From a virus, in the IMG/VR virus record IMGVR_UViG_3300010885_006034, positions 1 to 27,311 of that record: 27,311 nt of DNA; one strand, 5' to 3'. The notes below the pieces were generated by a model that saw only the letters and a list, made by a program, of their open reading frames with translations, did not search any database and was not told the DNA's origin. How positions within the stretch are numbered: the stretch's first letter is position 1; the number at the start of each line of letters is the position of its first letter. Positions 11,366-27,057 of this stretch are shown piece after piece. The translations under genes were made by a program, and so were the position numbers.

Positions 11366-11367
11366 TA

Positions 11368-11742
11368 TTAAATTCCTCTATACGTTTTAGTACAACCATT
11401 CTCATTATCTTCACTGACATCAATAGTAAACTTTCTACCTGGATACTTCGAGTGGATTTCTGTAGCAAGATCATCCGCAATCATCTCACAACTTTTATAA
11501 TCTAGTTCTAACGTACCATCATACAAACTTTCCAACCATCTCTTGAATTGGATGAACTCAATGTCTCTATCATTATGAGTAACTTCAATCCATACTTTGA
11601 ACCAGAACATATGACGATGGGGATATCCTAGGAACGACACATCAGCAAGATTAGGATCTGTTAACGCAGCAGGATACTTGTGGATACCTTCTTTCTTGAA
11701 GGTAACCCAAATAGAATTTGATTCTGTGATAAGAGTAGTCAT
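11368..11742 (-). CDS. QueD/PTPS-like T-fold paralogue, candidate deazaguanine tailoring protein
   Basis: The start at 11742 is chosen because GAGG lies six bases upstream. The 124-residue product has GIHKYP (H21) and YPHRHMFWFKVWIEV (H42, H44), which could form the three-histidine zinc site of 6-pyruvoyl-tetrahydropterin-synthase-like enzymes. It then has RDIEFIQFKRWLESL, SCEMIADDL (84-92) and IDVSED (E111), in the same order as in QueD. The catalytic Cys and the Asp-His pair of true QueD are not visible. It lies between the nuclease-like and DpdA-like genes. A role in processing the deazaguanine base, perhaps decarboxylation, is inference; a fold-level resemblance only is possible. Confidence 0.5.
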   Translation of the reverse strand: MTTLITESNSIWVTFKKEGIHKYPAALTDPNLADVSFLGYPHRHMFWFKVWIEVTHNDRDIEFIQFKRWLESLYDGTLELDYKSCEMIADDLATEIHSKYPGRKFTIDVSEDNENGCTKTYRGI

Positions 11743-11743
11743 G

Positions 11744-12205
11744 TTAAACCTCAATAGTTCTTCTGGTTACGAAAGGCATATGTTGTCCCGAGACTCTATA
11801 TAATCCCTTATTTCTCATGTTATTGTCAACAATATATTTTTGCATCTCTTGTCTATCATACCATGCCATTTGACCAGTAGTAGGATTACAATGCCAGATT
11901 CTATGACTGATTTTACTAGGATTGAATAACCATCCTTTATCATCAGTTTCAATGTAGAAGGTACCATGACTATCGATGTTAGATTTTACATCTGCTGAGT
12001 AAGGTCTTTTCCATTTAGGAGATTGGAATTCAATATCAATTCCAGCAAGCTGTTTGGTTCTGTCAGCTTCATGAAGAGTAACATTCCAGCCCCAACTTTC
12101 TAATACTTGTTTAACAAAAACTTCACCTTTCAATCCTTTAGCACCAGGGGGCCCGAAGGCCCCCTCTGCTGAATCAGTCCATTCTATAGTCAATCGTTCA
12201 CTCAT
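11744..12205 (-). CDS. PD-(D/E)XK nuclease-like protein
   Basis: A 153-residue protein with features of the restriction-endonuclease fold: an early glutamate in GLKGEVFVKQVLESWGW (E28), then LAGIDIEF (D57) and YSADVKSN (D72-x-K74), with the D...DxK spacing expected for a PD-(D/E)XK site. FYIETDDKGWLF follows. DNA cleavage is inferred only. It lies inside the deazaguanine island between folE and the QueD-like paralogue, where a nuclease could act on unmodified DNA. Codons about 14-20 form a very GC-rich C(UUCG)G hairpin. The ATG at 12205 follows AGGAA. Confidence 0.6.
   Translation of the reverse strand: MSERLTIEWTDSAEGAFGPPGAKGLKGEVFVKQVLESWGWNVTLHEADRTKQLAGIDIEFQSPKWKRPYSADVKSNIDSHGTFYIETDDKGWLFNPSKISHRIWHCNPTTGQMAWYDRQEMQKYIVDNNMRNKGLYRVSGQHMPFVTRRTIEV
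12146..12165 (-). other. C(UUCG)G hairpin inside a coding sequence
   Basis: AGGGGGCC and GGCCCCCT pair perfectly over 8 bp around TTCG on the coding strand, giving an extra-stable C(UUCG)G tetraloop. It encodes part of AEGAFGPPG near the N-terminus of the nuclease-like protein. It is far more GC-rich than its surroundings and has no U-tract, so it is not a normal terminator. Confidence 0.85.
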
Positions 12206-12218
12206 AATATAATTCCTA

Positions 12219-12887
12219 TTACTGACTTAATGTGATAAATTCTGCTCTGCAAGCTGGATCATTCTTAAATATACCACCTAACTTAGAAGTCACTGTAGTA
12301 CTACCAACATCTTCTACTCCTCTTGCCTTAACACAATAATGTCTAGCATCAATCTTAACAGCAATGTTATCAGTTTTCAAGATGTACTGAAGAGCATGAT
12401 ATACTTGTTCAGTCAATCGTTCTTGAATTTGTGGACGTTTAGCAAAGTACTCTACGATTCTATTCATTTTAGATAATCCTAGAACCACTTTGTCAGGAAT
12501 GTATGCTATAGTAGCAAAACCATCAATTACTACAAAGTGATGCTCACAATTAGATTGGACATTGATATTCTTCTCAATAACCATCTCATCATAACCCATT
12601 TTGTTTAGAACTGTAGTACATTTAGGGAATGCTTCAAAGTCTAATCCCCAGAAGATTTCATTAACGAACATCTTGGCTACTCGTTTAGGAGTATCCATTA
12701 GACTATCATCCATTAAATCTAATCCTAAAGTTTCCATGATATCTCTGAACTTATCTTCAATGATATCAATTCTTTGTGAGCGGGGATTAGCAAACGGTTT
12801 CATTGGAGTCTCTACTCCATGAGCAACCAAATGTTTGTGAATTTCATATCCAAGTTTAGCATCACATTTTGTTTTATTATAAGCCAT
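12219..12887 (-). CDS. folE: GTP cyclohydrolase I
   Basis: A 222-residue enzyme converting GTP to dihydroneopterin triphosphate, the first step of 7-deazaguanine and folate synthesis. Family signatures are DTPKRVAKMF (65-74), INVQSNCEHHFVV (C114, H116, H117), PDKVVLGLSKMNRIVEYFAKRPQIQ, and ARHYCVKARGV (H183, C185, the zinc-binding set with C114). The N-terminus matches the usual bacterial length. The start at 12887 is chosen because AAGGAAGG lies directly upstream; a longer frame would run 23 residues into queD. It lies downstream of queD and queE in the same orientation, consistent with the base-modification pathway rather than folate supply. Confidence 0.93.
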   Translation of the reverse strand: MAYNKTKCDAKLGYEIHKHLVAHGVETPMKPFANPRSQRIDIIEDKFRDIMETLGLDLMDDSLMDTPKRVAKMFVNEIFWGLDFEAFPKCTTVLNKMGYDEMVIEKNINVQSNCEHHFVVIDGFATIAYIPDKVVLGLSKMNRIVEYFAKRPQIQERLTEQVYHALQYILKTDNIAVKIDARHYCVKARGVEDVGSTTVTSKLGGIFKNDPACRAEFITLSQ

Positions 12888-12918
12888 TTTACCTTCCTTA
12901 ATCGGTGAATTTAATTTA

Positions 12919-13491
12919 CTACTTTCTGTAAGAACTTCTTGATTTTGGTGTCTCAAACCAATCTATTTGAGTCGTAGTCACGTTTAACTTCGACATCTTC
13001 ACATCAACACAATCATATAACCATTTTGATAAGTTTTCTGAAGTAGGAACGAAATCTACTATAAAATACCCTTCTAATGTTTCATATGTTTCATCTTCTG
13101 GAATTCCTGACATATCCAGAACGTACCCTGCTACGTGATCTGTATTAGGAACCAATACAGGTATAGTAGCTAAATCCTTATCAGTAACTGAATTCCATAA
13201 ACTCTGAACTAATCTAGTAAACATAGGATCATTAGCATCAATAATAAATCTATGATCAACGTACGTATCTAGGAAATTCTTCAACCAACCTAAATGTTTG
13301 AAATCAATTACCATTCCTCGTTCTAACGTATCTCCTTCAAGAAACACATGAACCAATCCCTCGTGGCCATGTAAGAACCTACATTTGCAATAGGTATCAT
13401 TAGAGTCGCAAAATTCTTCTACTAACTTTTGACTCCACACTCTATGACCATAACAAAAGCTAAACTGTTTATCAATAGTCCAAGTACTCAT
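12919..13491 (-). CDS. queD: 6-carboxy-tetrahydropterin synthase
   Basis: A 190-residue QueD, converting dihydroneopterin triphosphate to 6-carboxy-5,6,7,8-tetrahydropterin. The zinc ligands are H16 in FCYGHRVW and H41/H43 in CRFLHGHEG. C35 or C37 just before the HGH motif is the probable catalytic cysteine, and VDHRF (D79, H80) is the catalytic pair. PTSENLSKWLYD (149-160) and the late WFETP are family features. It is longer than the E. coli enzyme (about 120 residues), with inserts around residues 20-35 and 105-140. AAGGGG precedes the ATG. It lies between queE and folE. Confidence 0.9.
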   Translation of the reverse strand: MSTWTIDKQFSFCYGHRVWSQKLVEEFCDSNDTYCKCRFLHGHEGLVHVFLEGDTLERGMVIDFKHLGWLKNFLDTYVDHRFIIDANDPMFTRLVQSLWNSVTDKDLATIPVLVPNTDHVAGYVLDMSGIPEDETYETLEGYFIVDFVPTSENLSKWLYDCVDVKMSKLNVTTTQIDWFETPKSRSSYRK

Positions 13492-13500
13492 TTTATCCCC

Positions 13501-14277
13501 TTATCGATTTTTTGCGTTAGACCAAACATATGTATGGCCTCTAAGTGCTATTCTAAAACCTAATTCTTGATACTTCTCGACGATAGGAGCAATCTTTAAT
13601 TGATCTTCCATTGTCTCTCCCAAAGGCATTACCCATACCTCAGAATCAATATCATTATCCACTAGAATCTTAGTTACGTCAAGCAATTCTTTCTCACATT
13701 CTTTAGAAGCATCAGCTACAAACTTAATTTGAGTACTGAACAATTCCGTAATATCAATAATGTTATCAATATCTACTGCCCCTTTCTCACCACTGACTGA
13801 CTCAAGTTTAGGACTGATAGAGAAGAATGGATAAGCATCTGATTCATAAGCCCATTTAACAAACTCATCAGTTAATCGTTGAGTACCATTAGTCTCGACG
13901 GTAAAGTGAACAAAATCGTTCTCTTCTGTAAACAAATCAATTACTTCCATAATCATGGTCTGATACTTTTTCAATAATGGCTCACCACCAGTAAACACAA
14001 TATGGATGTCGCTATTAGTAATTGGATGAACCAATGAACCTGTTGGATTATTTTCATTTGTGATAAGTGCTTTCAGAGTTTGGTGAATCTCTTCTGCCGT
14101 ATAAGTTTCATGTTGATTTTTGAACTCACCATTCCAAGAGTATTCTGTGTCACAGGGAAATCCAGGACATTTCAAGTTACATCCAAATGAACGAACCCAT
14201 AATGAAGGAGTACCAGCAAAAGTACCTTCTCCTTGCATACTAAAGAACATTTCCGACAATCTATATTTGCTACTCAT
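13501..14277 (-). CDS. queE: 7-carboxy-7-deazaguanine synthase (radical SAM)
   Basis: A 258-residue radical SAM enzyme forming 7-carboxy-7-deazaguanine. It begins YRLSEMFFSMQGEGTFAGTP, the QueE start signature. The cluster motif is GCNLKCPGFPCDT with C33, C37 and C42, spacing CX3CX4C rather than the common CX3CX2C. TGGEP (96-100) binds SAM, VETNGT (127-132), SPKLES (155-160) and MPLG (217-220) follow, and the end RGHTYVW replaces the usual QxHK-like ending. GGAG precedes the ATG. It is the first of three consecutive pathway genes (queE, queD, folE). Function is well supported; cluster spacing is unusual. Confidence 0.9.
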   Translation of the reverse strand: MSSKYRLSEMFFSMQGEGTFAGTPSLWVRSFGCNLKCPGFPCDTEYSWNGEFKNQHETYTAEEIHQTLKALITNENNPTGSLVHPITNSDIHIVFTGGEPLLKKYQTMIMEVIDLFTEENDFVHFTVETNGTQRLTDEFVKWAYESDAYPFFSISPKLESVSGEKGAVDIDNIIDITELFSTQIKFVADASKECEKELLDVTKILVDNDIDSEVWVMPLGETMEDQLKIAPIVEKYQELGFRIALRGHTYVWSNAKNR

Positions 14278-14313
14278 TTCTTTCTCCGATTAACCAAAAC
14301 ATACATCATTATA

Positions 14314-14802
14314 CTATGGGTAGATCGTATAGTCAACAAATGATTCCCACGGATACACAATCCATAATGAGGGATCAGCTTCTTTATCAATCTCTTCGTA
14401 TGCAAAATCGACTTTGATAGGGCTAGCAATGTTGTTGTGGATAGTAGCAATTCTGAACATGATACTAGTATCTTCAGTCTCCCAATCCCAATTACCAATA
14501 ATCCACTCTAGTGTTTTTCCAGAATCATTAATATCATCAACCACAAGAACTTTGATTGGATCTTTTCCCAGAAGGAATCGTAAATAATCTGCATCAATGG
14601 TTTCTTGGATTTCCCCATCTCTTAACTGAACGATAAAGGTCTTGCAAGGGATACCTGTAATTTTGCTTATAAGAGTTGCTGGAATGGAACCACCATTAGC
14701 GATACCAATAATTAAGTCAGGAACCCAATCAGCTTCTTTCATTTGCTTATCTATTGATCGAATGGCATTTTCAACATACTGCCATGTCATGTATCTTTTC
14801 AT
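14314..14802 (-). CDS. Guanine/xanthine-type phosphoribosyltransferase
   Basis: A 162-residue type I phosphoribosyltransferase. The PRPP loop is VLVVDDINDSGKTL (85-98), a GIANGG loop (33-38) supplies the PPi site, and WIVYPWES (147-154) resembles the base-site end of xanthine-guanine phosphoribosyltransferases such as Gpt. These enzymes join a free purine base to PRPP to give the nucleotide. It lies directly upstream of queE in the modification island, so recycling of guanine released by the DpdA-like exchange enzyme is an attractive but unproven job. AAAGGT precedes the ATG. Base specificity cannot be proved by reading. Confidence 0.8.
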   Translation of the reverse strand: MKRYMTWQYVENAIRSIDKQMKEADWVPDLIIGIANGGSIPATLISKITGIPCKTFIVQLRDGEIQETIDADYLRFLLGKDPIKVLVVDDINDSGKTLEWIIGNWDWETEDTSIMFRIATIHNNIASPIKVDFAYEEIDKEADPSLWIVYPWESFVDYTIYP

Positions 14803-14811
14803 GTTATACCT

Positions 14812-16182
14812 TTAGAATACAAAATCGTTAGTAGATTTCTCATGACGAGATTTAGGTGCATATGATGTTGATGGTGTATCGGATAATCCACTTTGAGCAG
14901 ATTCTTCAACATCAAAGATTCTCATTTTATTTCTATCAATTCCTACCATGAACTTCTTGTAGTAACTTAGATCGTTATACCTGTTCTTCAACTGCTTAAT
15001 CATAATTTGACCTAGCTCTTCAAGTTCTTCAGTAGATATTAATGCTAGCATGAGATCGCAAGTTTGAGGTAAACCAATAGATTCTGAAGTATTAGTTAAG
15101 TCTAAATCGGAACTATTCAATCCTTCTCTATTTGCTTGAGTAGCACTTATTAGTGGTACGTTGTACTCTACAGCAAGACCACGAAGTTCTTCTGCAATAG
15201 CTTTCACGTAAGTATAACTATTAACTCCACCACCAAACTTCATTCTCTGAGAAGCACAGATATTCAAGTAATCAACAAAGATAATGTCTGGAACAAAATT
15301 CTTCTTAGATTTTAATTCCTCAATCAATGCTCTAAAGTGTCCAGTATGAGCAGCAGAAGTAGGATACTCTTTCACAATCAACTTACCGTGAGATTTCTTC
15401 TTCAACTTATTCAAGCGAGAATTGAAGATATCTTTCTCTACAGTCTTTAGTTCATTCATACCAAGATTCAGCAAATTGGCATCAATACGTTCAGCAATTC
15501 TTTCTTCAGCCATCTCCATAGTAATATAAAGAACATTCCGACTTTGCATTAGAGCAGCAGAAGCAAAATGACACATCACTAAAGATTTACCAACACCAGT
15601 ACCAGCAAGCAATATGGTCAGAGTTTTCTTAGCAAGACCATTACTTGTAATTTTGTTTAGGATATCAATATCAAAAGGAATCTTCTCCTCTACTCGATTA
15701 TAAAAATCATATCGATCAGATGAATCATCGAAGTAATCATGACCAACATCAGTATCAAAGCAAATACTCAGAGCATCAGATAACAGAGTAGGAATTGCTT
15801 CAGGAGTGAACTTATCATTCTTGCCATCGATAATCTGCATAGAAGACAGAATAGCATTAATTACTGCTCTATGCTTACAAAACTTCTCTGTTTCGTCGAG
15901 TAACCATTCCTGAGAAGTATCTTTGTGTTCAAATGAATCGATCAAGTGAACCAATTCACTAAGAGCTTCATCAGAAACATCTGGTCGATTAGATACTTGG
16001 ATAGTCATAATCTCTTTAGTAGGAAGACTACTAAAATCATTAACAAATGACAATATAGTTTCTGCTATGATAGCTTCACTACGATCAGCAAAGTATTCCT
16101 TCTTAATGAAGGGCAATGCTTTTTGACTAAATTCAGGATTATGGATTAGATTCGATAATATAGTAGTTTCAATTCTACTCAT
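14812..16182 (-). CDS. 41: Replicative DNA helicase (DnaB family, T4 gp41-like)
   Basis: A 456-residue hexameric helicase. Residues 1-140 form the helical N-terminal domain. The RecA-like motor carries Walker A GTGVGKS (194-200), a family H1a-type TMEMAEERIAERID (221-234), Walker B IIFVDYLN (300-307), H3-type SATQANREG (346-354), and GIDRNKMR near the C-terminus. T4 gp41 is 475 residues. It unwinds DNA ahead of the phage polymerase and pairs with the primase, whose gene is not in the window. Its ATG overlaps the stop of the preceding small gene (TAATG). The order uvsX, small gene, helicase is the same as in T4 (uvsX-40-41). Confidence 0.92.
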   Translation of the reverse strand: MSRIETTILSNLIHNPEFSQKALPFIKKEYFADRSEAIIAETILSFVNDFSSLPTKEIMTIQVSNRPDVSDEALSELVHLIDSFEHKDTSQEWLLDETEKFCKHRAVINAILSSMQIIDGKNDKFTPEAIPTLLSDALSICFDTDVGHDYFDDSSDRYDFYNRVEEKIPFDIDILNKITSNGLAKKTLTILLAGTGVGKSLVMCHFASAALMQSRNVLYITMEMAEERIAERIDANLLNLGMNELKTVEKDIFNSRLNKLKKKSHGKLIVKEYPTSAAHTGHFRALIEELKSKKNFVPDIIFVDYLNICASQRMKFGGGVNSYTYVKAIAEELRGLAVEYNVPLISATQANREGLNSSDLDLTNTSESIGLPQTCDLMLALISTEELEELGQIMIKQLKNRYNDLSYYKKFMVGIDRNKMRIFDVEESAQSGLSDTPSTSYAPKSRHEKSTNDFVF

Positions 16183-16466
16183 TAAATTCCACCTTTGAAT
16201 ACAGTAGTTTTATCTTTGAGCGATTCCTCTAGGATATTCACTAGAATATCACCTAGACAATTTTTGAAGGTTTGATTGTTGTCTTCTGATACGTATCCTT
16301 GATGTAAGGTATATTCAAAACTCAGTACTGGTTCTTCTGGATCAGGAAACTCTACCTTCCCAAATGAGAATATAGTACCTTTGAATTCACCTTCTATGAT
16401 TTCTAAGGCAATAACTTCAGTTCCTGTTGAATCAAAATAGTTATACGTTTCAAATTCGGTATTCAT
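16182..16466 (-). CDS. Small protein in the gp40 position
   Basis: The start at 16466 is chosen because GGAG lies directly upstream; a longer TTG start would include the ribosome site in the coding region. The 94-residue product begins MNTEFETYNYFDSTGTEVIA and contains EGEFKGTIFSFGKVEF, an acidic beta-rich protein with no membrane helix. It lies exactly where T4 gene 40 (head vertex assembly chaperone) lies, between uvsX and helicase. Homology to gp40 is suggested by position alone. Its stop overlaps the helicase ATG, so coupling to helicase expression is likely. Confidence 0.65.
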   Translation of the reverse strand: MNTEFETYNYFDSTGTEVIALEIIEGEFKGTIFSFGKVEFPDPEEPVLSFEYTLHQGYVSEDNNQTFKNCLGDILVNILEESLKDKTTVFKGGI

Positions 16467-16486
16467 AATACACTCCAAGTTAAGAA

Positions 16487-16504
16487 GGGCATCCGAAGAT
16501 GCCC
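16487..16504 (-). terminator. C(UUCG)G hairpin between uvsX and the gp40-position gene
   Basis: GGGCATC and GATGCCC form a perfect 7-bp stem around TTCG on the minus strand, just downstream of the uvsX stop. The following TTCTTAAC is a poor U-tract, so it may protect or process mRNA, or terminate partially. T4 is known for such tetraloop hairpins between genes. Confidence 0.7.
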
Positions 16505-16511
16505 GATAATA

Positions 16512-17606
16512 TTACACTAATTCTTCTAGTTCGTCAACATCAGAATTGACTTTATCAAGTTCAGCTTCGATGTCTTTATCTGATAGCATTTCAGAAGAAG
16601 TTAGTTTATAGTTATCTGAAACCCATTGTTGGAATCCTTTTTGTGCTAGTATAGGTAACCAGAAATCCTTATTGATAGTTTCTTTTAATCTATATTTCTT
16701 ATCTTCAAGTTCTCCAGTAGTAGAATTGATTCTTGAATACCATCCATTGCTAGGTTTGATTACATGACCAGATTCTAAAGCCATCTCTAATAATCCTGAC
16801 CATTTAGATACACCACCCTCGAACGAAACACTGATTGGGATTTTAGATTTCTCTCTAACGTATCTTGATTTCTCCACATTGATAATGAAGTTATAACCAA
16901 TTACTTCAGTACCTTCTTTTTCTTGTTGACGTCCTAGAATGAAGATATTATCGGCAGACAAGTATATTCCTGTTCCACCTGAAACAATTGCTTTTGGATA
17001 TAAGCCTTGTTCCATATAAATGTGGTTCACTGCTACCATAGGAATATCAAGTCTATTCAAATATGGAGTAATCATTCTGAAGATAGACTTCATCTGTTTA
17101 GCACGAGACATATCAGCTACTGCTTTTCCATCAATAGCATCGTCGATCTCTTTCTTAGATGACATATTACCAAGAGAATCGATTACAAAGATTACTCGAT
17201 CGCCTCGTTTCAGACCTTCTAGTTGTTGAATAGCATCAAACTTAAACTCTTCCATATTCATAATAGGAACATGAAGTACTCGATTCATGTCAATGTTTAA
17301 TGAATCGAAGTAAGCGGCAGGAGTACCAAACTCACAATCATAAAAAATCATGATGGCATCTTTGTATTTGTCAAGATAAGCCTTTGCCATAATAAGAGAA
17401 AAATAACTCTTGAAATGTTTTGAAGGGCCACAAAATAATGTTAATCCAGGAACAAACCCACCATCAAGTTCTCCAGACAAAGCAACGTTCATTGCTGGAA
17501 TAGAAGTTTGAATCATGTCCTTCTTAGTAAAGAACTTTGAGTCCTGTAGGATATTAGAATCTTTGATTGTGGTATTCTTTCTTATTCTAGCTAACAATTC
17601 AGACAT
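16512..17606 (-). CDS. uvsX: RecA-like recombinase UvsX
   Basis: A 364-residue strand-exchange protein. Walker A is the T4-type GPSKHFKS (60-67), Walker B is VIFVIDS (138-144), and VAVNHIYMEQGLYPKAIVSGGTGIYLSADNI contains the polymerisation and DNA-binding loop region. The C-terminus is acidic (DKDIEAELDKVNSDVDELEELV region), as in T4 UvsX. It drives recombination-dependent replication and repair. The ATG has AAGGAA upstream, and a sigma70-like promoter precedes it (17636-17663). A C(UUCG)G hairpin follows the stop. Length is close to T4 UvsX (about 390 residues). Confidence 0.93.
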   Translation of the reverse strand: MSELLARIRKNTTIKDSNILQDSKFFTKKDMIQTSIPAMNVALSGELDGGFVPGLTLFCGPSKHFKSYFSLIMAKAYLDKYKDAIMIFYDCEFGTPAAYFDSLNIDMNRVLHVPIMNMEEFKFDAIQQLEGLKRGDRVIFVIDSLGNMSSKKEIDDAIDGKAVADMSRAKQMKSIFRMITPYLNRLDIPMVAVNHIYMEQGLYPKAIVSGGTGIYLSADNIFILGRQQEKEGTEVIGYNFIINVEKSRYVREKSKIPISVSFEGGVSKWSGLLEMALESGHVIKPSNGWYSRINSTTGELEDKKYRLKETINKDFWLPILAQKGFQQWVSDNYKLTSSEMLSDKDIEAELDKVNSDVDELEELV

Positions 17607-17635
17607 ATTGAATTCCTTTGGTTGATTAAAAGATT

Positions 17636-17663
17636 ATTATACTACATTCTACAGATTATTCAA
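17636..17663 (-). promoter_or_regulatory. Candidate promoter for uvsX
   Basis: Minus-strand TTGAAT (17658-17663) and TATAAT (17636-17641) are 16 bases apart, about 30 bases upstream of the uvsX ATG. It starts immediately after the end of the displaced gp43 tail. The -10 is perfect; the -35 is one base from consensus. Confidence 0.6.
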
Positions 17664-17665
17664 CA

Positions 17666-17752
17666 TTAGAAGAATGCATCCAACGAAGATACCTCTTCAA
17701 GTACCCATCCAATAGGCTTAACGATATTTCCTAGTGGGTTTAAGAACACCTT
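17666..17752 (-). other. In-frame C-terminal tail of gp43 beyond a TAA
   Basis: Right after the gp43 TAA (17753-17755) the same frame stays open for 28 codons to a second TAA at 17666-17668. It encodes KVFLNPLGNIVKPIGWVLEE and then VSSLDAFF. The ending resembles the C-terminal clamp-binding peptide of T4-like polymerases (a hydrophobic SL-D-x-FF type motif), and QF-E-KxFLxPL is what I expect in related polymerases, so the TAA stands where GAA is expected. The tail is translated only if the stop is read through or the TAA is a sequence error. Confidence 0.75.
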
Positions 17753-20158
17753 TTAAAATTGTGTATCATAATCAATATACTTGTTTAGATTGAATTCTTC
17801 AGGTAGATTTCCAGGAAATCCAATCACATTCTGTTTGATTGTATTAGGAAGTTTCAAAAACACATACTTCAACTTATCTCCTGAAGCTATCAAAGGATAC
17901 TTCTGAGTCAGATTATGAGCCTTGAGATTGTGGTTATACACTAATCCTGCTCGAACTTGAAGAGGACATCCTTTACTGAATATAGTCTTCTCATTATGAT
18001 AGTTGGCCATTCCATTAACAGACTTGGCAATAGCAATGTCTTCTACATTATAAGTCTTGAATTCCTTCTTAGCTTTATCAATGAACTTGAGAAGGTCTTC
18101 ATTTGTCTGATCAAAAATAATATCAAGAGTTTGTTTCAGTTTATCTTTAATAATTGGAGGAGTAGTAGCTTTCACAATATCGATACCCATAATCTTCATC
18201 TTGGGTTTCTCATATTGTACTCCTTCTGAATTATGAACTCGAAGAGCATATCGCTTCTTAGCAGTCCACAATCCTTTATCAGCCAATACTTCTCGTTTCA
18301 TTTGCATTTTCTGATCATACGAATTCAGATACTCAGCAAGCTCAGCATATGACTTTGCAATGTATGGAGTCAATACTTTAGAACAGAACGTATCCATAAA
18401 CTGAATCTTTTCAGCTGTAGTCTTATCAGGTACATTTGAATCAATCAACTTAGCCAACGAGATGTAACAACTATCTGTGTCCATCGCAATAATATAATCA
18501 TAATCAGTGGTTTTCATTGCTGAATTCATATACTTGTTGAGTTTAGCTGCAATCCACTTAATCGATAATTGACCACCAGTAGTAATACCTTCAGCCATTC
18601 TCAAATCATAATATCTGAAATACGGCATACCTAGAGCACCATAAGCAGAATTCAGAGTAATCTTCAACGCCATTTGAATATTATGAAGTCGAGTAATTTC
18701 CTTCGACAATTCTTTGTTGGATTTGTCTTTCTCATAATCTTGTTCGAGCTTGAGCATTTCTTTCTTCTTAATAGAACGATTAACGTACATCGTATCCATC
18801 AACTGAGGTAAGAATCCTCGTTTCTCTTTAGAATAACACCAGCCGTTAGCCGTAACAGCATAATCAGTTTTTGGTAGTTCCATCTTATTCAACAATCCTT
18901 CGATCGTGACATTATGACGAGTAGTTGTGATAGTCTCAGGACTAATATTACTTTGCATAATAAGATGAGGATACAATGAAGCTAAATCGAATGAAGCTAC
19001 CCAGTTATGGAATCCTACTTGAGGTGGCTTAACAAAAGCTCCTTCTAGTTCTCCCTTAACTGAACTTCTATCTTGGTTAGGAATTACAATGTGTTGAGCT
19101 AGCAAATAATGATAGATTGTAGCATCCCACAACCGAACTGGACTAAACGCTTCGCTATAATTGATCTTGGCCATATAAGCCATAGTCAAATGTAATTCGA
19201 TGAACTTTAGTTGATCATCTAGTCTATTGATTAGTTCAACGTCCTGAGCATTGTAATCGACATACGTATTCCAATCGTTGGTGTAGAATTCCTTGAAACT
19301 ATTCCACTCACTATGATCCACTTTCCGCTCACCTAATACAATATAAGCAATGTGGTCTAATTTATACGATTCTTCAGTTGACATAGAATATTTCTTATAC
19401 AAATCAAGATAATCTAAGCAGGATGTTCCTACAATATCAACAGTCAGAACTTCATCATCATTAAGTTTTTCCATACGTTCATGTACTATATTCCACACAG
19501 ACAACTTCTTAGAATACTCAGATCCGAGAACCTTATTGATTCTATTTACAATGTATGGCATATCGAAGTTGTTAATGTTCCATCCTGAAATAATATCAGG
19601 AACTCTCTCTTGCCAATGAGCAATGAACTGTTTCAACAAAGATGATTCATCTTGACACAAAACATAACATTCTGGATACTGACCAGTATAAGGTCTCGAA
19701 CCAAATATCTTCTTGGTTTTCGTTTTCATATCAGAAATACCAATCAATAGTATTTCTTCATTGGCATACTTTGGTTTTGGGAATCCTTCTTCTTCATCAG
19801 CAGTCTCGATATCGATTGACACAATCTTCAGCAGATCAGAATCAAACTTGATGTCGTTAGGATAAGTCTCAGCAACATACTGATAGGCATAATTGGTTTG
19901 ACCTAAGATATTGAATCCTTCTACATGCTCATAGCTCTTGATGAATTCTTTACAGTCGATGATGGTTCCAGGATTGATTTCATAAACAGGAATACCATAT
20001 AAGGATTTCCATTTGTCTTCTGAGGAAGGTTTCTTAGATGTAGTGAATAGAGTAGGATAAAAATCTATCTTGGTTTTTCGAGGAAGTCCATCTTGAATAT
20101 ATCGAACGAGAATCTTGTTACCATACTGAATTGCTGAAGTATAGAAGTTATTTGTCAT
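17753..20158 (-). CDS. 43: Family B DNA polymerase gp43
   Basis: The start at 20158 is preferred because GGAG lies six bases upstream; the ATG four codons earlier overlaps that site. The product has 801 residues to the TAA. In the numbering of the longer 805-residue frame, the exonuclease motifs are SIDIETA (118-124), NINNFDMPYI (198-207) and YNAQDVELI (306-314). Polymerase motif A is SFDLASLYPHL (393-403), motif B KITLNSAYGALG (503-514) and motif C AMDTDSCYI (562-570). T4 gp43 is 898 residues. The C-terminus stops at YIDYDTQF, short of a conserved-looking 28-residue clamp-binding tail that continues in frame. A strong hairpin lies just upstream of the ribosome site. Confidence 0.93.
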   Translation of the reverse strand: MTNNFYTSAIQYGNKILVRYIQDGLPRKTKIDFYPTLFTTSKKPSSEDKWKSLYGIPVYEINPGTIIDCKEFIKSYEHVEGFNILGQTNYAYQYVAETYPNDIKFDSDLLKIVSIDIETADEEEGFPKPKYANEEILLIGISDMKTKTKKIFGSRPYTGQYPECYVLCQDESSLLKQFIAHWQERVPDIISGWNINNFDMPYIVNRINKVLGSEYSKKLSVWNIVHERMEKLNDDEVLTVDIVGTSCLDYLDLYKKYSMSTEESYKLDHIAYIVLGERKVDHSEWNSFKEFYTNDWNTYVDYNAQDVELINRLDDQLKFIELHLTMAYMAKINYSEAFSPVRLWDATIYHYLLAQHIVIPNQDRSSVKGELEGAFVKPPQVGFHNWVASFDLASLYPHLIMQSNISPETITTTRHNVTIEGLLNKMELPKTDYAVTANGWCYSKEKRGFLPQLMDTMYVNRSIKKKEMLKLEQDYEKDKSNKELSKEITRLHNIQMALKITLNSAYGALGMPYFRYYDLRMAEGITTGGQLSIKWIAAKLNKYMNSAMKTTDYDYIIAMDTDSCYISLAKLIDSNVPDKTTAEKIQFMDTFCSKVLTPYIAKSYAELAEYLNSYDQKMQMKREVLADKGLWTAKKRYALRVHNSEGVQYEKPKMKIMGIDIVKATTPPIIKDKLKQTLDIIFDQTNEDLLKFIDKAKKEFKTYNVEDIAIAKSVNGMANYHNEKTIFSKGCPLQVRAGLVYNHNLKAHNLTQKYPLIASGDKLKYVFLKLPNTIKQNVIGFPGNLPEEFNLNKYIDYDTQF

Positions 20159-20186
20159 ATTGTTCTCCATAATGTAATAATATTCT

Positions 20187-20220
20187 ACTTAGGGATATTA
20201 TCCATCAAATATCCCTAAGT
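20187..20220 (-). promoter_or_regulatory. Leader hairpin upstream of gp43
   Basis: ACTTAGGGATAT (20187-20198) pairs perfectly with ATATCCCTAAGT (20209-20220) over 12 bp with a 10-base loop. It lies between the exonuclease stop and the gp43 ribosome site, about 18 bases before GGAG, and is not followed by a U-tract. In T4, gp43 represses its own mRNA at a hairpin near its ribosome site, so a translational operator is possible. Confidence 0.6.
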
Positions 20221-20234
20221 GACAACATTCAATC

Positions 20235-20798
20235 TTAGTTTGGATATAGCAGTTGCAACGCATCAAAACAAATATCATGAATTGGATTGTGCTTTTGAAC
20301 TAAGATCTTATCAAACCCTGGAAGATTAACGTCACAGTATCCACCATCTGAACTACTTGAAAGAATATCCACAGCAGTTCGGATATCACGGAATCTGCTA
20401 TGTTTGACTACATGAGGAATGTTCATAGCATTACACAAACTACAAATAACCATAAAATCAAAACCACTTCTGGCCCATACAATTGGTTGACTAGAGGTAT
20501 CGTACTTCTTGATGTAGTCCTTGATTAGTTGGATTCCTTCAGCGGCAGATACGTCATTAGGAGAAGGAAGTAAACTAACTTTACGAACTTCGTCTGATTG
20601 ATTTTGCCACCAATCCAAAGTTTCTTTTGATACCGTTCTTTTGAAGTCTCTTGTTTGTTCTTTAGCATCAAACTTCACAAACAGAGCTTTAGATAACAAC
20701 GAATCCCACGTGTCGCCTTCTGTAAATTCAACAATACTAGCAGAAAGAATTACTGCAGTAGATTCTACATCGAGGGTTTCTAAATCCAATACTAACAT
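20235..20798 (-). CDS. DEDDh 3'-5' exonuclease (DexA-like)
   Basis: A 187-residue exonuclease of the DnaQ/RNase T superfamily. The acidic residues are D5 and E7 in VLDLETLD, D114 in WARSGFDFMVI, and the H-x4-D pair H174/D179 in IHDICFDALQL, giving the DEDDh set. RFRDIRTAVD (135-144) and a tryptophan-rich DWWQNQSDE also fit. T4 DexA (227 residues) is the likely counterpart; it degrades single-stranded DNA 3' to 5'. GGAG precedes the ATG. It sits between the Sm-like gene and gp43 in the replication operon. RNA rather than DNA as substrate cannot be excluded. Confidence 0.8.
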   Translation of the reverse strand: MLVLDLETLDVESTAVILSASIVEFTEGDTWDSLLSKALFVKFDAKEQTRDFKRTVSKETLDWWQNQSDEVRKVSLLPSPNDVSAAEGIQLIKDYIKKYDTSSQPIVWARSGFDFMVICSLCNAMNIPHVVKHSRFRDIRTAVDILSSSSDGGYCDVNLPGFDKILVQKHNPIHDICFDALQLLYPN

Positions 20799-20811
20799 TT
20801 ATTTCTCCAAT

Positions 20812-21117
20812 CTAAACGATGATTTTTTGAGTAGGAGGAGTAATGATCAAAGACTCTTCAAATTTGGATTTATACTCATCAGCTAGACCTTGAGCTGGAG
20901 TGCAGATTGAGGCAATAGCATGTTTATTCAGAGTAATATTAGATTCAGCATAAGGCTGGAATGCTGCAATCATAAGACCGATCTTTCCAGATTCTGTCAT
21001 TTGAGTTGCAATTTGAGCAGGATTTTCTAATTCGTAAGTGGTATCAGTTTCTGAAGCAATGATAGAAATAACTTCATCTCCAGATAATAAACGAAATGCG
21101 AGTATTTGATTTGTCAT
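20812..21117 (-). CDS. Small Sm-like phage protein
   Basis: The start at 21117 is chosen over the upstream codon because GGAA lies just before it and the pattern is shared with neighbouring genes. The 101-residue product begins MTNQILAFRLLSGDEVISII and contains ELENPAQI, resembling small LSm/Hfq-like proteins seen in T4-like phages near gp43. Such a protein might bind RNA, but the match is weak and no binding residues can be assigned. It follows a Rho-independent terminator after hsp20, so it probably has its own promoter or partial readthrough. Confidence 0.55.
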   Translation of the reverse strand: MTNQILAFRLLSGDEVISIIASETDTTYELENPAQIATQMTESGKIGLMIAAFQPYAESNITLNKHAIASICTPAQGLADEYKSKFEESLIITPPTQKIIV

Positions 21118-21130
21118 AATATATTCCATA

Positions 21131-21165
21131 AAGAAAAAAAGAAGGGGAGATAACGAGTCTCCCCT
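21131..21165 (-). terminator. Rho-independent terminator after hsp20
   Basis: AGGGGAGA (21143-21150) pairs with TCTCCCCT (21158-21165) around a 7-base loop. On the minus strand the stem is followed by TTCTTTTTTTCTT. It lies 10 bases past the hsp20 stop at 21175. Confidence 0.85.
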
Positions 21166-21174
21166 ATAAATTGA

Positions 21175-21626
21175 TTAACCTAACAACAAATTATTAGATG
21201 TACTGATTTCAAGTTTACGAGGTTTTAATTCCTCTGGGATGATATGGTCAAGAAAGATACGCAACATGCCATCATTAAGTTTGATCTCAGATACTATCAC
21301 GTTTTCAGCAATTGTGAAGGTTCTAGTAAATGCTCTTGATGCAAGACCTTTATACAAGTATACACTATCATCTGGTTCTGCAGATTTACCAGTAACAGTC
21401 AGTGTTCTGTTATAAAGTTCAACGTCAATATCATTACGACTAAAACCAGAACAGCAATCTCAATAATAAACGAATTATCTCCAACAGTTTTGATATTGTA
21501 TGGTGGATAAGACTTTTGGTTTTTAAGATTCTCAGTTGCTTTTCTAATTGCTTCTGAATGTGTATCAAATCCTACAAAGAATTTCAAGAGTTCCTTGTCA
21601 AATTGAACTAGTTGGTTTGCTAACAT
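21175..21626 (-). pseudogene. hsp20: Small heat-shock protein Hsp20 (IbpA-like), frameshifted
   Basis: The gene reads as two pieces. The first (from the ATG at 21626) gives FFVGFDTHSEAIRKATENL, YPPYNIKTV and SFIIEIAV, matching the IbpA N-terminus and first alpha-crystallin strands, then leaves the family pattern. Adding one T near 21449-21450 gives AVSGFSRNDIDVELYNRTLT, continuing into YLYKGLASRAFTRTF, LNDGMLRIFLDHIIPE and PRKLEIS of the second piece. Restored length is 150 residues, normal for Hsp20. These chaperones hold unfolded proteins. AAGGGGAA precedes the start and a terminator follows the stop. It is a mutation or a sequence error; no slippery heptamer is seen. Confidence 0.88.
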
Positions 21627-21657
21627 AATGTTCCCCTTTTAAGCGAGATTTTAGTAA

Positions 21658-21680
21658 TGATCACTCCGAAGACATGATCA
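21658..21680 (-). other. Imperfect UUCG hairpin upstream of hsp20
   Basis: TGATCA at 21658-21663 and 21675-21680 can pair, enclosing a short TC-TTCG-GA tip on the minus strand with an internal mismatch. It lies in the 95-base gap between the small gene at 21722 and hsp20, without a U-tract. A weak processing or operator element is possible. Confidence 0.4.
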
Positions 21681-21721
21681 GTGTTTGAGAAGTTTTAGTG
21701 TTCCTCCTCAGAACAAACAAC

Positions 21722-21913
21722 TTATTCCACTGAAGCTTCTTCTGGAGGCAACAGCTCTTTAATCTGTGCTTCGCCCTGGGCATAAATTTTACCAATCAAT
21801 GCATTAATTTCATCGAATGGATACTTACCTAGAATAGCAAGTAATTTGTTCACATCAGTAATGGTGAGTGTGATATTTAGTTCAGTAGTATTTTCATCTA
21901 ATGGTTGTGTCAT
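21722..21913 (-). CDS. Small conserved phage protein (63 aa)
   Basis: The start at 21913 has GGAA upstream, while the longer frame would overlap regA. The 63-residue product reads LNITLTITDVNKLLAILGKYPFDEINALIG, a beta strand and two amphipathic helices, with an acidic tail PPEEASVE. It resembles small proteins I have seen in the gp43-regA region of myophages, but I know no function. It is immediately downstream of regA in the same operon. Confidence 0.65.
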   Translation of the reverse strand: MTQPLDENTTELNITLTITDVNKLLAILGKYPFDEINALIGKIYAQGEAQIKELLPPEEASVE

Positions 21914-21926
21914 AGTATATTCCAAT

Positions 21927-22352
21927 TTAGTGTGAAGTTTTACGAACACCGATGTTATACTTAGGCATCAATGTCCAGTTTGATTTCTCTTGGTATGTAA
22001 GAATCTTGATTGATGATAACGAAGCTCGTTTAGCAACTTTATCAGTATCAACGACTTTCAACAAATTCCAATCTTGTAACAGTACAGCAATAGCATTTCT
22101 CCGTTCGATATCATCTTGAGAGATGTTTGATTCCTTACCATCCAATGCAAACAATTCTTTGAAGTGCACCAAATAGTATCTTCCTTGCTTGTGTAGAATA
22201 TGGCATGACTGATACAGTATATTGTCTTTTTTAGAAGCAACACCAATCCGAGACAGAGTTTCTTTAATCTTTAAAAAGCTATCTGGTTCTGGAATGGTAA
22301 TTTCTAACATATTATCAGTCAAATTATCATATTGTGTAGTAGTTTCACTCAT
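21927..22352 (-). CDS. regA: Translational repressor RegA
   Basis: A 141-residue RNA-binding repressor that blocks ribosome binding on early phage mRNAs. The match to T4 RegA is direct: MLEITIPEPDSFLKIKETLS, RIGVASKKDNILYQSCHIL, YLVHFKELFALDG, RRNAIAVLLQDWNLL and WTLMPKYNIG. T4 RegA is 122 residues. Here the reading frame adds 14 residues (MSETTTQYDNLTDN) before the T4-equivalent Met, which has no ribosome site. The first ATG overlaps the gp62 stop (ATGA), so coupled translation supports the longer form. Gene order 45-44-62-regA-43 is as in T4, with six small or medium genes inserted before 43. Confidence 0.95.
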   Translation of the reverse strand: MSETTTQYDNLTDNMLEITIPEPDSFLKIKETLSRIGVASKKDNILYQSCHILHKQGRYYLVHFKELFALDGKESNISQDDIERRNAIAVLLQDWNLLKVVDTDKVAKRASLSSIKILTYQEKSNWTLMPKYNIGVRKTSH

Positions 22353-22732
22353 TTTCGACCACCCGTGTATTGTCTCTCTTTTATGTAGTTAATTTGTTCA
22401 GTAGTTAGCATATCCAAAACATCTTTACCTCTCTGTTTAGAATATCCATAATATGAACATACTGCAGCAAGGTCATCAGATTTTGATGCCTTCTCTGCCC
22501 ACTTCGAGAAACGCTTTTTCCTTGCGATCGTATTTATATAATAAGCAAATTGTTGCTTACTAGGAATAGACGAATACTGATTCATCTCGTTAGCGAACAT
22601 AACAGTATCAACAAAGTACGAAAGACTACGGTTGATCAAAAATGCATTGTAATCTTTGTCAGCCTGAGGATCCTCAAATAGATCCTCTTTCGAATAATTT
22701 ATAGCATTCACGAACTCAAATGGCTTAATCAT
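22349..22732 (-). CDS. 62: Clamp-loader small subunit gp62
   Basis: A 127-residue helical protein between gp44 and regA, the T4 position of gene 62. Helical segments NAFLINRSLSYFVDTVMFAN, KQQFAYYINTIARKKRFSKW and ICSYYGYSKQRG-like DLAAVCSYYGYS match the gp62 pattern. T4 gp62 is 187 residues, so this one is short at the C-terminus, as in many distant relatives. With four gp44 subunits it loads the sliding clamp. GGAG precedes the ATG; the stop overlaps the regA start. Confidence 0.88.
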   Translation of the reverse strand: MIKPFEFVNAINYSKEDLFEDPQADKDYNAFLINRSLSYFVDTVMFANEMNQYSSIPSKQQFAYYINTIARKKRFSKWAEKASKSDDLAAVCSYYGYSKQRGKDVLDMLTTEQINYIKERQYTGGRK

Positions 22733-22747
22733 AATATAGACTCCAAG

Positions 22748-23707
22748 TTACTTGAACTTACAAGCTGACATAATTTCAGTCATACACGCCATGATATTGA
22801 TTTCTTTATCAGCTCGGAAAGCTCCTTTGTAATCATAATCAGCAAGAATCAACACCAATTCAGGAATACTTTGTGGTTCTAAATGTTCTACTGAAGTATC
22901 ATACAACTTTCTCTCTAGTTCTACAAATTCAGTATCAACATTACTACCAACCCATTTACGTACATCAGTAAAGTTTTTGGCTTTGAGTGATGTTAACAAT
23001 ACCCCAAACTTATCATCATTGAAGTTACTCGATAAGATTCCGACATCTATTTTACCAGAAACTGAGTATCTTTGCAACTCATTTAAGATTCTTCTATAGT
23101 CTGGAAAGTGTTTGATTACTAATTCAGATACTACTTTAGGATCAAATTCAACATCTTCGTTATTGAGAATTTGAACCACTCTCTTATAGAATCCTGCCGC
23201 TATAGCAGGCTTATCTTTTGCTTCTACTTTGAAATCGATACAAGTACATCTGCTATGTAGCGGTTCAATAATTCTTTGTTTGTAGTTACAAGTAAAAATG
23301 AATCTACAGTTAGCAGAGAACTCTTCCATAAAAGAACGTAATGCTGGTTGAACACTTTGAGGATTCATATAGTCAGCTTCATCCAGAATAATAACTTTCT
23401 TAGAATCAGTCAACGAAACAGTAGAAGCAAAACTCCGAATAGTACCTCTTAGTACATCAATGGACCGACCTTCGTCAGATCCATTGATTAGTATATATTC
23501 AGCACCAATCTCATTACAAAGAGCTTTAGCAACAGTAGTCTTACCTGTACCAGCAGAACCTGAAAACATAAAGTGAGGCAATTGTCCTGATTCAATAAAT
23601 TCCTTAAAAGTAGTCTTCAACGACTCAGGAAGAATACAATCATCAATCAACTGTGGTCTGTATTTTTCTACAAACAAGAATTGGTTATTAATGCTAGAAA
23701 TTGTCAT
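22748..23707 (-). CDS. 44: Clamp-loader ATPase subunit gp44
   Basis: A 319-residue AAA+ ATPase of the RFC/gp44 family. LFVEKYRPQLIDDCILP is the N-terminal signature, Walker A is GSAGTGKT (50-57), Walker B is VIILDEAD (105-112), sensor 1 is FIFTCNYKQRIIEPL, and the SRC motif is HSRCTCIDF (151-159). T4 gp44 is also 319 residues. With gp62 it opens the clamp ring and loads it on primed DNA. AAAGGA lies ten bases before the ATG. It follows the clamp gene in the same operon. Confidence 0.95.
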   Translation of the reverse strand: MTISSINNQFLFVEKYRPQLIDDCILPESLKTTFKEFIESGQLPHFMFSGSAGTGKTTVAKALCNEIGAEYILINGSDEGRSIDVLRGTIRSFASTVSLTDSKKVIILDEADYMNPQSVQPALRSFMEEFSANCRFIFTCNYKQRIIEPLHSRCTCIDFKVEAKDKPAIAAGFYKRVVQILNNEDVEFDPKVVSELVIKHFPDYRRILNELQRYSVSGKIDVGILSSNFNDDKFGVLLTSLKAKNFTDVRKWVGSNVDTEFVELERKLYDTSVEHLEPQSIPELVLILADYDYKGAFRADKEINIMACMTEIMSACKFK

Positions 23708-23725
23708 AATATAAAGGTCCTTTAA

Positions 23726-24388
23726 TTAAGCTGAGAAAGTAGAATCTTGTTCAACACCAACATAATAAACTAAATCAGAAGAAGTAGAAGCAAATCTGGA
23801 TACTCGTTTAGATGAAATAGACACTTGGTATTCTCCTGGAATGAACTTGAGGATATCTACCTTGAAATTAACTTGGAATTCTAAATCTGTATTACCAATA
23901 GCTACTTCAAAAGAGTTAGCTGTATCATTTTTCTTATCACCAATGAACAACTTCAGTTCACCATCAACTCCAATGAATGATACATCAGATGATCTTAATA
24001 CAGAAGCAGTTTTAGTAATCAATGATAAGTGTTCTGCAGTCAATAACAATTCGATATCAGTTTCTGGAAAGTTGATGTCCTTCTTAGGAACCTCAAGAAC
24101 ATTAGATTCTGCTGAATAATATTTGATAGAATTCTTACCTTCAGAAATCTTAACAAACTTCTCGTTAAATTCCAACTCGGGACTTTGGAATAGAGCCATA
24201 ACACTAAGGAACTCGGTCAAATCATAGATACCAAATTCTTGTGGGAAGGTATCAGGAACAGTAGCAGAAGACATTAGAGTATTAGCAAGAGTTCTGGTCT
24301 TGAGAATGTTTCCTGGAGTAATCAACAGATTGGAATTGATTGAAGCATAGTTTTTCAAAATAGTAATAGTGTCTTTCGATAGTTTCAT
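23726..24388 (-). CDS. 45: Sliding clamp gp45
   Basis: A 220-residue protein matching the T4 gp45 processivity clamp in size (228), position and pattern: MKLSKDTITILKNYASINSN, LITPGNILKTRTLANTLMSSA, EFGIYDLTEFLSVMALF, and a C-terminal strand region FVEIVDILKFIPGEYQVSIS-like DILKFIPGEYQVSISSK. It forms a trimeric ring that holds the polymerase on DNA and, in T4, also activates late transcription with gp33 and gp55. GAGG precedes the start (AGGAAGTAAAATG). It begins the replication operon; an AT-rich TATAAT lies about 40 bases upstream. Confidence 0.93.
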   Translation of the reverse strand: MKLSKDTITILKNYASINSNLLITPGNILKTRTLANTLMSSATVPDTFPQEFGIYDLTEFLSVMALFQSPELEFNEKFVKISEGKNSIKYYSAESNVLEVPKKDINFPETDIELLLTAEHLSLITKTASVLRSSDVSFIGVDGELKLFIGDKKNDTANSFEVAIGNTDLEFQVNFKVDILKFIPGEYQVSISSKRVSRFASTSSDLVYYVGVEQDSTFSA

Positions 24389-24435
24389 TTTACTTCCTCA
24401 TAGTTTAGGTCAAAGATTATATTATCTAACATGAA

Positions 24436-24759
24436 TCATTTTATTACAACATTATTCTTCAACAAGTATTCACATAAGCTCATTAGACTTGCTATAGCAT
24501 GAGCAAGATGATGTAGTTGAGAGGTTTTGTCTAGTTCTTCTCCATCTCTGTATTCCCATTGATGTAGTTGAGCAGTATTAAAGAACTTTCGTTTTGCTTC
24601 AGTAGGACTCATCCAAGTATCATCACTTGTATAAGACATTACCTTTGCTACTTCTTTCAATGCAAGAGGAGGAATCCTATCATAATTTGGTTCTGTTGGC
24701 TTTGGAATGCTATACCTATTAAGCTCAGCCAAAAATAATTCGTATTCATCTTCAGTCAT
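24436..24759 (-). CDS. DUF5664-like putative dNTP pyrophosphohydrolase-family protein
   Basis: The start at 24759 is chosen because GGAG lies five bases upstream. The 107-residue product has IPPLALKEVAKVMSYTSDDTW, a short middle, then GEELDKTSQLHHLAHAIASLMSLCEYLL. The last part (E, D, then H-L-x-H-A) resembles the metal-binding helices of DUF5664 and related all-alpha NTP pyrophosphohydrolases, some of which act on dATP or dGTP in phages. The match is partial, and activity is inference. It is upstream of the clamp gene. Confidence 0.5.
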   Translation of the reverse strand: MTEDEYELFLAELNRYSIPKPTEPNYDRIPPLALKEVAKVMSYTSDDTWMSPTEAKRKFFNTAQLHQWEYRDGEELDKTSQLHHLAHAIASLMSLCEYLLKNNVVIK

Positions 24760-24830
24760 GTTATCTCCATGGATTAAATCTTTCAAGAGTAATGATTGTC
24801 AATATTATTAATCCTGCTAGTATATCTATA

Positions 24831-25277
24831 TTAGTAATCATTATGAAAATCTCCTAACTCATAATCTTCGTACACATAAAGTCGAAATGGAAAATTTACA
24901 TCACCTACATTACAAAAATTAGGTCCTAGAAACCGCTCTACTACTCCAGTCACCAATTTGATTCCATATTGCTCTTCAAACTCGTCCTTATCTTCAAACA
25001 TTACATCAGCAAAATTACCTTCGATATAGATAGGCAATTTAGCTTTGTAGTATGGCCAAGGGTCGTAGAAATCGTTAGCTGGGTAAAGTTGGAATAAATT
25101 TGACTCATTTACCAATTCATTATAGTCATCTATGTTCTTGATGGTTAAGGTATAACCATCTTTCAAGTTAACTTCTCTGTAAGTAGTATTGAGTAAAATT
25201 TTACTATGTTCAGTAAAGTGATTGCCATTCAATCTATCAGTAAATTCAATTAACTCTGGGAAATCTTCAATTCTCAT
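24831..25277 (-). CDS. Hypothetical protein (148 aa)
   Basis: An acidic, aromatic-rich 148-residue protein with no signal or membrane segment: MRIEDFPELIEFTDRLNGNH, YPANDFYDPWPYYKAK and LGPNFCNVGDVNFPFRLYVY are its most distinctive stretches. I do not recognise the family. GGAG precedes the ATG, which overlaps or abuts the stop of the upstream DUF1566-like gene, so the two are co-translated. The gene therefore likely shares the TTGACC promoter upstream. Confidence 0.7.
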   Translation of the reverse strand: MRIEDFPELIEFTDRLNGNHFTEHSKILLNTTYREVNLKDGYTLTIKNIDDYNELVNESNLFQLYPANDFYDPWPYYKAKLPIYIEGNFADVMFEDKDEFEEQYGIKLVTGVVERFLGPNFCNVGDVNFPFRLYVYEDYELGDFHNDY

Positions 25278-25657
25278 TATTCAGCTCCTAAATCAACAGT
25301 ACGAATTTTTCTAACAACACAAACAGCATCATGTTCCATCGAAATACCCATACCCATTCTTGAATACACATATTTTGTATCACGGGTAGTATATTTGGTA
25401 GAAGTCCAATACGTTTGTCTTTCGATGAATTTTTCAGGTTCAACAGTCATCATCATTTCCATTTGTTCTAGTGATGGAATGAAGTAATCGTACTGTCTTG
25501 ATTCACCTTCACCAAGAATAAGCGGTCTGTTCCATCCTTCAGAGAACGAAGCAAGATATTCTGTTTCTACTGGAGACAGAATGAGATGATATGGTTTAAC
25601 GTGTCCCGGACAGACTGTTCCAATATAAGTCTCGCCAGGTAAAAGTTGTGGTACCAT
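25277..25657 (-). CDS. DUF1566-like protein, paralogue of 7587-7883
   Basis: The start at 25657 follows GAGGAA in the same 20-base leader as its paralogue. The 126-residue product has FIPSLEQMEMMMTVEP, TYWTSTKYT and CVVRKIRTV, the P-x-x-x-E / Y-W-T-S / V-x-R-x-R series of DUF1566. It is longer at the N-terminus (LLPGETYIGTVCPGHVKPYH). No signal peptide is seen and function is unknown. It has its own TTGACC promoter and leads the next gene by direct overlap. Confidence 0.65.
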   Translation of the reverse strand: MVPQLLPGETYIGTVCPGHVKPYHLILSPVETEYLASFSEGWNRPLILGEGESRQYDYFIPSLEQMEMMMTVEPEKFIERQTYWTSTKYTTRDTKYVYSRMGMGISMEHDAVCVVRKIRTVDLGAE

Positions 25658-25674
25658 TTTATAATTCCTCTTCA
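25655..25674 (-). repeat. 20-base leader copy 2, shared with 7881-7900
   Basis: The minus strand reads TGAAGAGGAATTATAAAATG, identical to the leader of the other DUF1566-like gene about 17.8 kb to the left. Confidence 0.8.
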
Positions 25675-25694
25675 TATTTTATTAAGTTACAGCT

Positions 25695-25723
25695 ATTGTC
25701 CTACACTATTCATCAAAGGTCAA
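25695..25723 (-). promoter_or_regulatory. Sigma70-like promoter for the 25657 gene
   Basis: Minus-strand -35 TTGACC (25718-25723) and -10 GACAAT (25695-25700) are 17 bases apart. It lies inside the 3' end of the upstream gene and repeats the GTTGACCTTT block of the promoters at 7937 and 26739. Confidence 0.6.
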
Positions 25724-26005
25724 CAATTCTTTTTCAATCATGTCATAGGCCCAACTTGGCATTTCAATCTCTTCAAGTGACTCAAGTATAGCAAAGTAGC
25801 TACCTTTAGTTTTATCAATAAAATGCCGATGAGGTTGTTCGTACCTTTCTATAGCCAAACTCTTACCAAACTCTTTAGAATACAAATCATTCTTGTTAGA
25901 GAAGGCAATTCCAAATCTGGCAACATTATGAGGTTCCAGCTTGTATGCGATAGTAATAACATTAGTTCTTGCTTTGGATCTATCGCCTAAGTATATAAAT
26001 TTCAT
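25706..26005 (-). CDS. Hypothetical phage protein (99 aa)
   Basis: A 99-residue protein reading NVITIAYKLEPHNVARFGIAFSNKN and then YSKEFGKSLAIERY, a strand-strand-helix pattern I associate with small conserved myophage proteins of unknown role. The C-terminal half contains FAILESLEEIEMPSWAYDMI. AGGAG precedes the ATG. A promoter for the next gene is embedded in its 3' end. No function can be assigned. Confidence 0.7.
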   Translation of the reverse strand: MKFIYLGDRSKARTNVITIAYKLEPHNVARFGIAFSNKNDLYSKEFGKSLAIERYEQPHRHFIDKTKGSYFAILESLEEIEMPSWAYDMIEKELLTFDE

Positions 26006-26014
26006 AATAATCTC

Positions 26015-26299
26015 CTAGTTTTGGCCTGTAATTTTCAACCACAAATTGTGCACATATATTGATGACACTAATCCTAGAGCTCCTCCGACAACATAGCATA
26101 CCGATTCTGCTATACCAGCATCAGGAGTAGCCTTATACAAAAACAACTGAAGGGAACCAATCATTAGTGCTGTAATGAAAGAAGGCAACGCTTCTTTGCT
26201 CTTTACAAACTGAGACTGAATTCCTAACAACATAATCAAGAAGAACGATGAGAAGAAAAGGGTTATCATCGATACAAGTTGTTCATTCACACATAGCAT
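26015..26299 (-). CDS. Small membrane protein, three predicted helices
   Basis: The start at 26299 is chosen because GGGAA lies seven bases upstream; the longer TTG start has no ribosome site. The 94-residue product has hydrophobic segments near LVSMITLFFSSFFLIMLLGI, SFITALMIGSLQLFLY and SVCYVVGGALGLVSSIYV. It resembles small multi-pass phage inner-membrane proteins of unknown role; a holin is possible by topology but there is no lysis context at this end. It starts just after the upstream 131-residue gene. Confidence 0.65.
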   Translation of the reverse strand: MLCVNEQLVSMITLFFSSFFLIMLLGIQSQFVKSKEALPSFITALMIGSLQLFLYKATPDAGIAESVCYVVGGALGLVSSIYVHNLWLKITGQN

Positions 26300-26313
26300 A
26301 ATACTGTTCCCAC

Positions 26314-26709: not shown

Positions 26710-26738
26710 ATTTATTCCTTAGTGAGCTATTATAGGGT

Positions 26739-26767
26739 AATATACAGGAGTTTAATGAAAAGGTCAA
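26739..26767 (-). promoter_or_regulatory. Sigma70-like promoter for the 26709 gene
   Basis: Minus-strand -35 TTGACC (26762-26767) and -10 TATATT (26739-26744) are 17 bases apart, 30 bases before the start codon. It repeats the AATGTTGACCTTT context of the promoter at 7937. Confidence 0.65.
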
Positions 26768-26775
26768 CATTATTT

Positions 26776-26783
26776 TATAAATA
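26776..26783 (+). promoter_or_regulatory. T4-type late promoter, plus strand
   Basis: TATAAATA at 26776-26783 is an exact late -10 element, about 20 bases upstream of the ATG at 26804. It is back to back with the minus-strand TTGACC promoter, making a divergent pair. Confidence 0.65.
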
Positions 26784-26803
26784 TATTTCATTTGGAGTAT
26801 AGT

Positions 26804-27004: not shown

Positions 27005-27011
27005 TAAAAAG

Positions 27012-27031: not shown

Positions 27032-27057
27032 TAGTGTTGTCACCTTAGGAGAGTGAT

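Follow-up and report, generated by a model that had tools for sequence, protein, structure and literature searches.

The gene 43 locus and its surroundings

The window, by which we mean the whole stretch of DNA analysed, is an IMG/VR-type virus record of 27,311 bp with a gene set typical of a T4-like phage, and INPHARED held no phage record near it at the DNA level. Its minus strand carries the gp45 sliding clamp, the gp44 and gp62 clamp loader, RegA, the DNA polymerase gp43, a UvsX-like recombinase and a DnaB-like helicase (Table 1). The gp43 neighbours gp45, gp44, gp62 and RegA (PHROGs 223, 168, 225 and 242, respectively) run from 24388 to 21927 on the same strand, which places gp43 in a replication-gene neighbourhood; gp45 is presumably the partner of the gp43 C-terminal tail. 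The PHROG 262 DNA polymerase match spans gp43 residues 3-805 (E 6.6e-293), and the Pfam domains DNA_pol_B_exo1 and DNA_pol_B are both present, as in full-length members of the family with exonuclease and polymerase domains.

The 805-aa ORF ends in NKYIDYDTQF, where it meets a TAA in the codon context TTT TAA AAG, and 28 sense codons follow in the same frame: KVFLNPLGNIVKPIGWVLEEVSSLDAFF. The original prediction had drawn attention to this stop, and its coordinates, residues and codon context were all correct on direct reading. Because tail and body share one reading frame, ribosomal frameshifting was set aside.

Table 1. Features of the gp43 locus and related genes in the window
Feature	Positions	Strand	Basis
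gp43 DNA polymerase (B family), 805 aa before the in-frame TAA	17753..20170	-	ORF; PHROG 262; 46-53% identity to T4-like phage polymerases
In-frame TAA	17753..17755	-	GAA in near-identical contig L086; sense codon in 82/82 relatives
28 open codons past the TAA, conserved gp43 C-terminal tail	17669..17752	-	Alignment to relatives; gap-free against T4 gp43 870-897
SLDAFF, counterpart of the T4 clamp-interacting peptide 892-SLDFLF-897	17669..17686	-	Alignment; peptide and role from PMC12746103
TAA closing the 834-aa form of the gene	17666..17668	-	Sequence; frame of contig L086
Hsp20-family gene, broken by one missing base at 21449	21175..21626	-	Intact, 150 aa, in contig L088
gp45 sliding clamp	23726..24388	-	PHROG 223 DNA polymerase processivity factor, E 4.2e-65

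Other parts of the window have features of their own. A run of nucleotide-metabolism genes at 9451-14802 on the minus strand (a weak dCTP deaminase match, a dNMP kinase, a GTP cyclohydrolase, QueD-like and QueE-like proteins and a phosphoribosyl transferase) suggests synthesis of a queuosine-type precursor and, perhaps, a modified phage DNA. Next to it, positions 9073-9450 form a 378-base gap with no ORF of at least 60 aa on the coding strand, unusually long for such a tightly packed region, and with no match in Rfam. Contigs L089 (sample 3300046011) and L090 (sample 3300046010) match window positions 1-11510 patchily, at 88-98% identity in separate blocks with nothing matching between them, in the manner of mosaic phage genomes; gp43 was not found in the records of either contig. 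A stop suspected in 4251-6017 from comparison with these two contigs was an artefact of gaps in the alignment; the protein alignment has no stop there.

A conserved tail beyond the stop

We compared the frame on both sides of the stop with gp43 from 82 IMG/VR relatives, whose best segments were 44-53% identical to it. Mean identity was 46% in the tail compared to 49% in the body, and Q804, F805, K807, W822, F833 and F834 were invariant. Codon 806, where the window has TAA, specified E in 66 relatives, D in 5, N in 5, S in 4 and Q in 2; no stop occurred at this codon or anywhere else in the aligned gp43 of these relatives (0/82). This conservation bears out the claim, made from the window alone, that the open frame past the TAA is real polymerase sequence.

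The same holds for the claim that the tail ends in a peptide for gripping the clamp. The uninterrupted gp43 of a near-identical contig (described below) aligns to T4 gp43 through residue 897 (PDB 9ea3, chain 9ea3_A), with SLDAFF over SLDFLF, and counting back without gaps from the end of this alignment puts the window stop at T4 residue 869. As described in PMC12746103, T4 residues 892-SLDFLF-897 occupy a hydrophobic pocket of gp45, and a gp43 without its last six residues cannot associate with the clamp; work on the T4 C-terminus, as presented in PMC12746103 and PMC4488733, reports that its deletion abolishes clamp binding and leaves polymerization unaffected. In the window the coding sequence for the clamp-interacting peptide follows the stop in frame; in the near-identical contig the frame runs into it unbroken. 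By analogy with T4, the tail would bind gp45, and such a clamp-binding tail would be known biology.

Near-identical contigs without the gene breaks

A search with the C-terminal region retrieved IMGVR_UViG_3300027749_002334 (L083; the whole contig, L086), which is 99.97% identical to window positions 8449-20540, with four differences in about 12.1 kb. At the gp43 stop codon it has GAA, and hence one continuous 834-aa gp43. The difference at 17755, window TAA vs GAA, is the very G-to-T change that the original prediction had put forward as the source of the stop; an origin from CAA, considered on account of the glutamine found there in L009 and L005, was rejected in view of the GAA of this twin contig. 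The tail sequence is the same in window and twin, with no decay after the stop. The remaining three differences are an extra T in a run of Ts immediately preceding the GTP cyclohydrolase gene (12887), residue 62 of QueD (13307; I in the window, T in the twin) and a silent change in the UvsX-like gene (16671). The original prediction had named reads with GAA at 17753-17755 as the finding that would count against it, and in substance that GAA has been found, in the twin contig, though not in the sequencing reads behind this record. No further contig came back when the collection was queried with a pattern across this site that accepted any base at the first codon position, a search from which the window's closest neighbours may be missing. 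Looking through the whole collection for gp43 genes with a stop at the corresponding position turned up only L082, which, judging by its ORFs and local sequence, is a chance match and not gp43.

The adjoining stretch of the window has a twin with the same sample id, IMGVR_UViG_3300027749_001555 (L088), which matches 20536-27311 with two differences. One breaks a second gene: L088 has an intact Hsp20-family gene (PF00011, E 1.2e-13) that is matched by relatives, whereas the corresponding stretch of the window splits into two short ORFs, neither with a Pfam match. The other, at 22914, falls in gp44, where residue 265 is E in the window as against A in the twin, and L, M or F in relatives (15, 5 and 4, respectively). 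Two of the six differences from the twins are therefore gene-breaking, both in the window, and for each defect there is a near-identical sequence that lacks it, L086 for gp43 and L088 for Hsp20.

All four substitutions are coding, a single one of them silent. Had these genes changed at random, a silent share of 17-21% would be expected, whereas about 70% of the codons that differ from L089 and L090, which are natural relatives, differ silently; the set thus looks unfiltered by selection, as would be expected of errors or very recent mutations, a pointer that is weak by itself with n = 4. At each of the four, a G:C pair of the twin is A:T in the window, a direction compatible with either origin.

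Origin of the stop

In the explanation that we consider best, the locus would be an ordinary T4-like gene 43 whose sole product is an 834-aa polymerase ending in the clamp-interacting peptide, and the TAA at 17755-17753 would be a one-base difference private to this record and devoid of programmed function, introduced into the contig consensus by sequencing, by DNA damage or amplification, or by low-coverage assembly. That this private change is a contig error seems to us a good deal better than an even bet, the choice of error over true mutation being drawn from sequence comparison. Since a 99.97% identical contig has the glutamate codon, an error or a stray mutation is the most likely origin, and not a device for making two polymerases; the phage itself most probably has no such stop. 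The Hsp20 break bears on the quality of the record. In T4, gp43 is an essential replication protein, and two gene breaks in one record, one of them in such a protein, make an error likelier than a real mutation. On the other side, six differences make a small set that either kind of cause could yield; both twin contigs carry a single sample id and may share an assembly; and the direction of the change at QueD residue 62 is unsettled, with I in the window and T in both the twin and the solved homologue 3jyg.

The main competitor, which we regard as possible but distinctly the less likely, is a genuine nonsense mutation, with GAA and TAA genomes coexisting among the phages sampled. The polymerase made by the TAA form would lack its last 29 residues and could not hold the clamp, and the form would be a deleterious variant or defective genome, perhaps carried by intact phages in the same cell; such a polymerase would be predicted to keep catalysis and lose clamp tethering. 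The records do differ by real-looking single changes within the same population, all four substitutions run from G:C to A:T (twin to window), a direction that mutation also favours, and a tail that is undecayed and identical in window and twin fits a very recent change. However, given the need for the C-terminus in T4 clamp binding reported in the work cited above, such an allele should be strongly disfavoured, and a second broken gene in the same record is unexpected in a viable genome. Programmed readthrough of the TAA, giving polymerases with and without the clamp-binding tail, would account for a tail that continues in frame and undamaged past the stop, and two forms are conceivable in view of the reported separability of polymerization and clamp binding in T4. 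It predicts, however, that the stop be kept in near relatives, and is contradicted by its absence from the near-identical contig and from 82/82 relatives; nor does the RNA at and beyond the stop show more structure than its shuffled counterparts (z -0.73 over 131 nt, with pseudoknots outside the model). We consider it very improbable, as we do a variant in which one lineage of this phage population has lately acquired a stop ahead of the tail, so that most of its polymerase is clamp-free and leaky readthrough supplies some full-length protein. Reading of TAA as an amino acid, through a suppressor tRNA or a changed code, has precedents in the stop reassignment described for other phages (TAG to Gln in crAss-like phages; PMC9523058), but TAA ends 27 of the 40 genes counted in the window and is hence the ordinary stop here, and the twin has GAA. 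The window encodes just two tRNAs, Gly-TCC and Thr-TGT, which were also all that Rfam gave, and no suppressor tRNA was found in the 27,311-bp window or in the 28 related loci scanned. We give this reading next to no credence. Of the three alternatives first proposed for the stop, programmed readthrough therefore falls away, and sequence error and nonsense mutation remain, with the Hsp20 break favouring error.

Had the stop been programmed, a single phage gene would have yielded both clamp-bound and free polymerase. One near-identical contig settled most of the case, and comparison with such contigs should come before any function is assigned to a lone stop or frameshift in a phage contig derived from metagenomes.

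Comparison with known systems

In-frame stops kept in prokaryotic genes, for which readthrough has been proposed (PMC7918605), likewise lie inside a well-kept coding frame, but the argument presented there is from evolutionary conservation, whereas the window stop occurs in one record and is absent from its near-identical twin. T4 gp43 belongs to the same family over its whole length, with a gap-free tail in which the window's SLDAFF lies over SLDFLF; in contrast to it, the window frame meets a stop where T4 has residue 869, a stop that the twin contig lacks. The gp43 proteins of T4-like cyanophages (for example, Synechococcus phages S-T4 and S-SM2) and of uncultivated relatives are 46-53% identical over nearly the whole protein, and their tails are of the same type, ending in -FF or in -FF plus one residue, with a sense codon in the relatives compared where the window gp43 has its stop.
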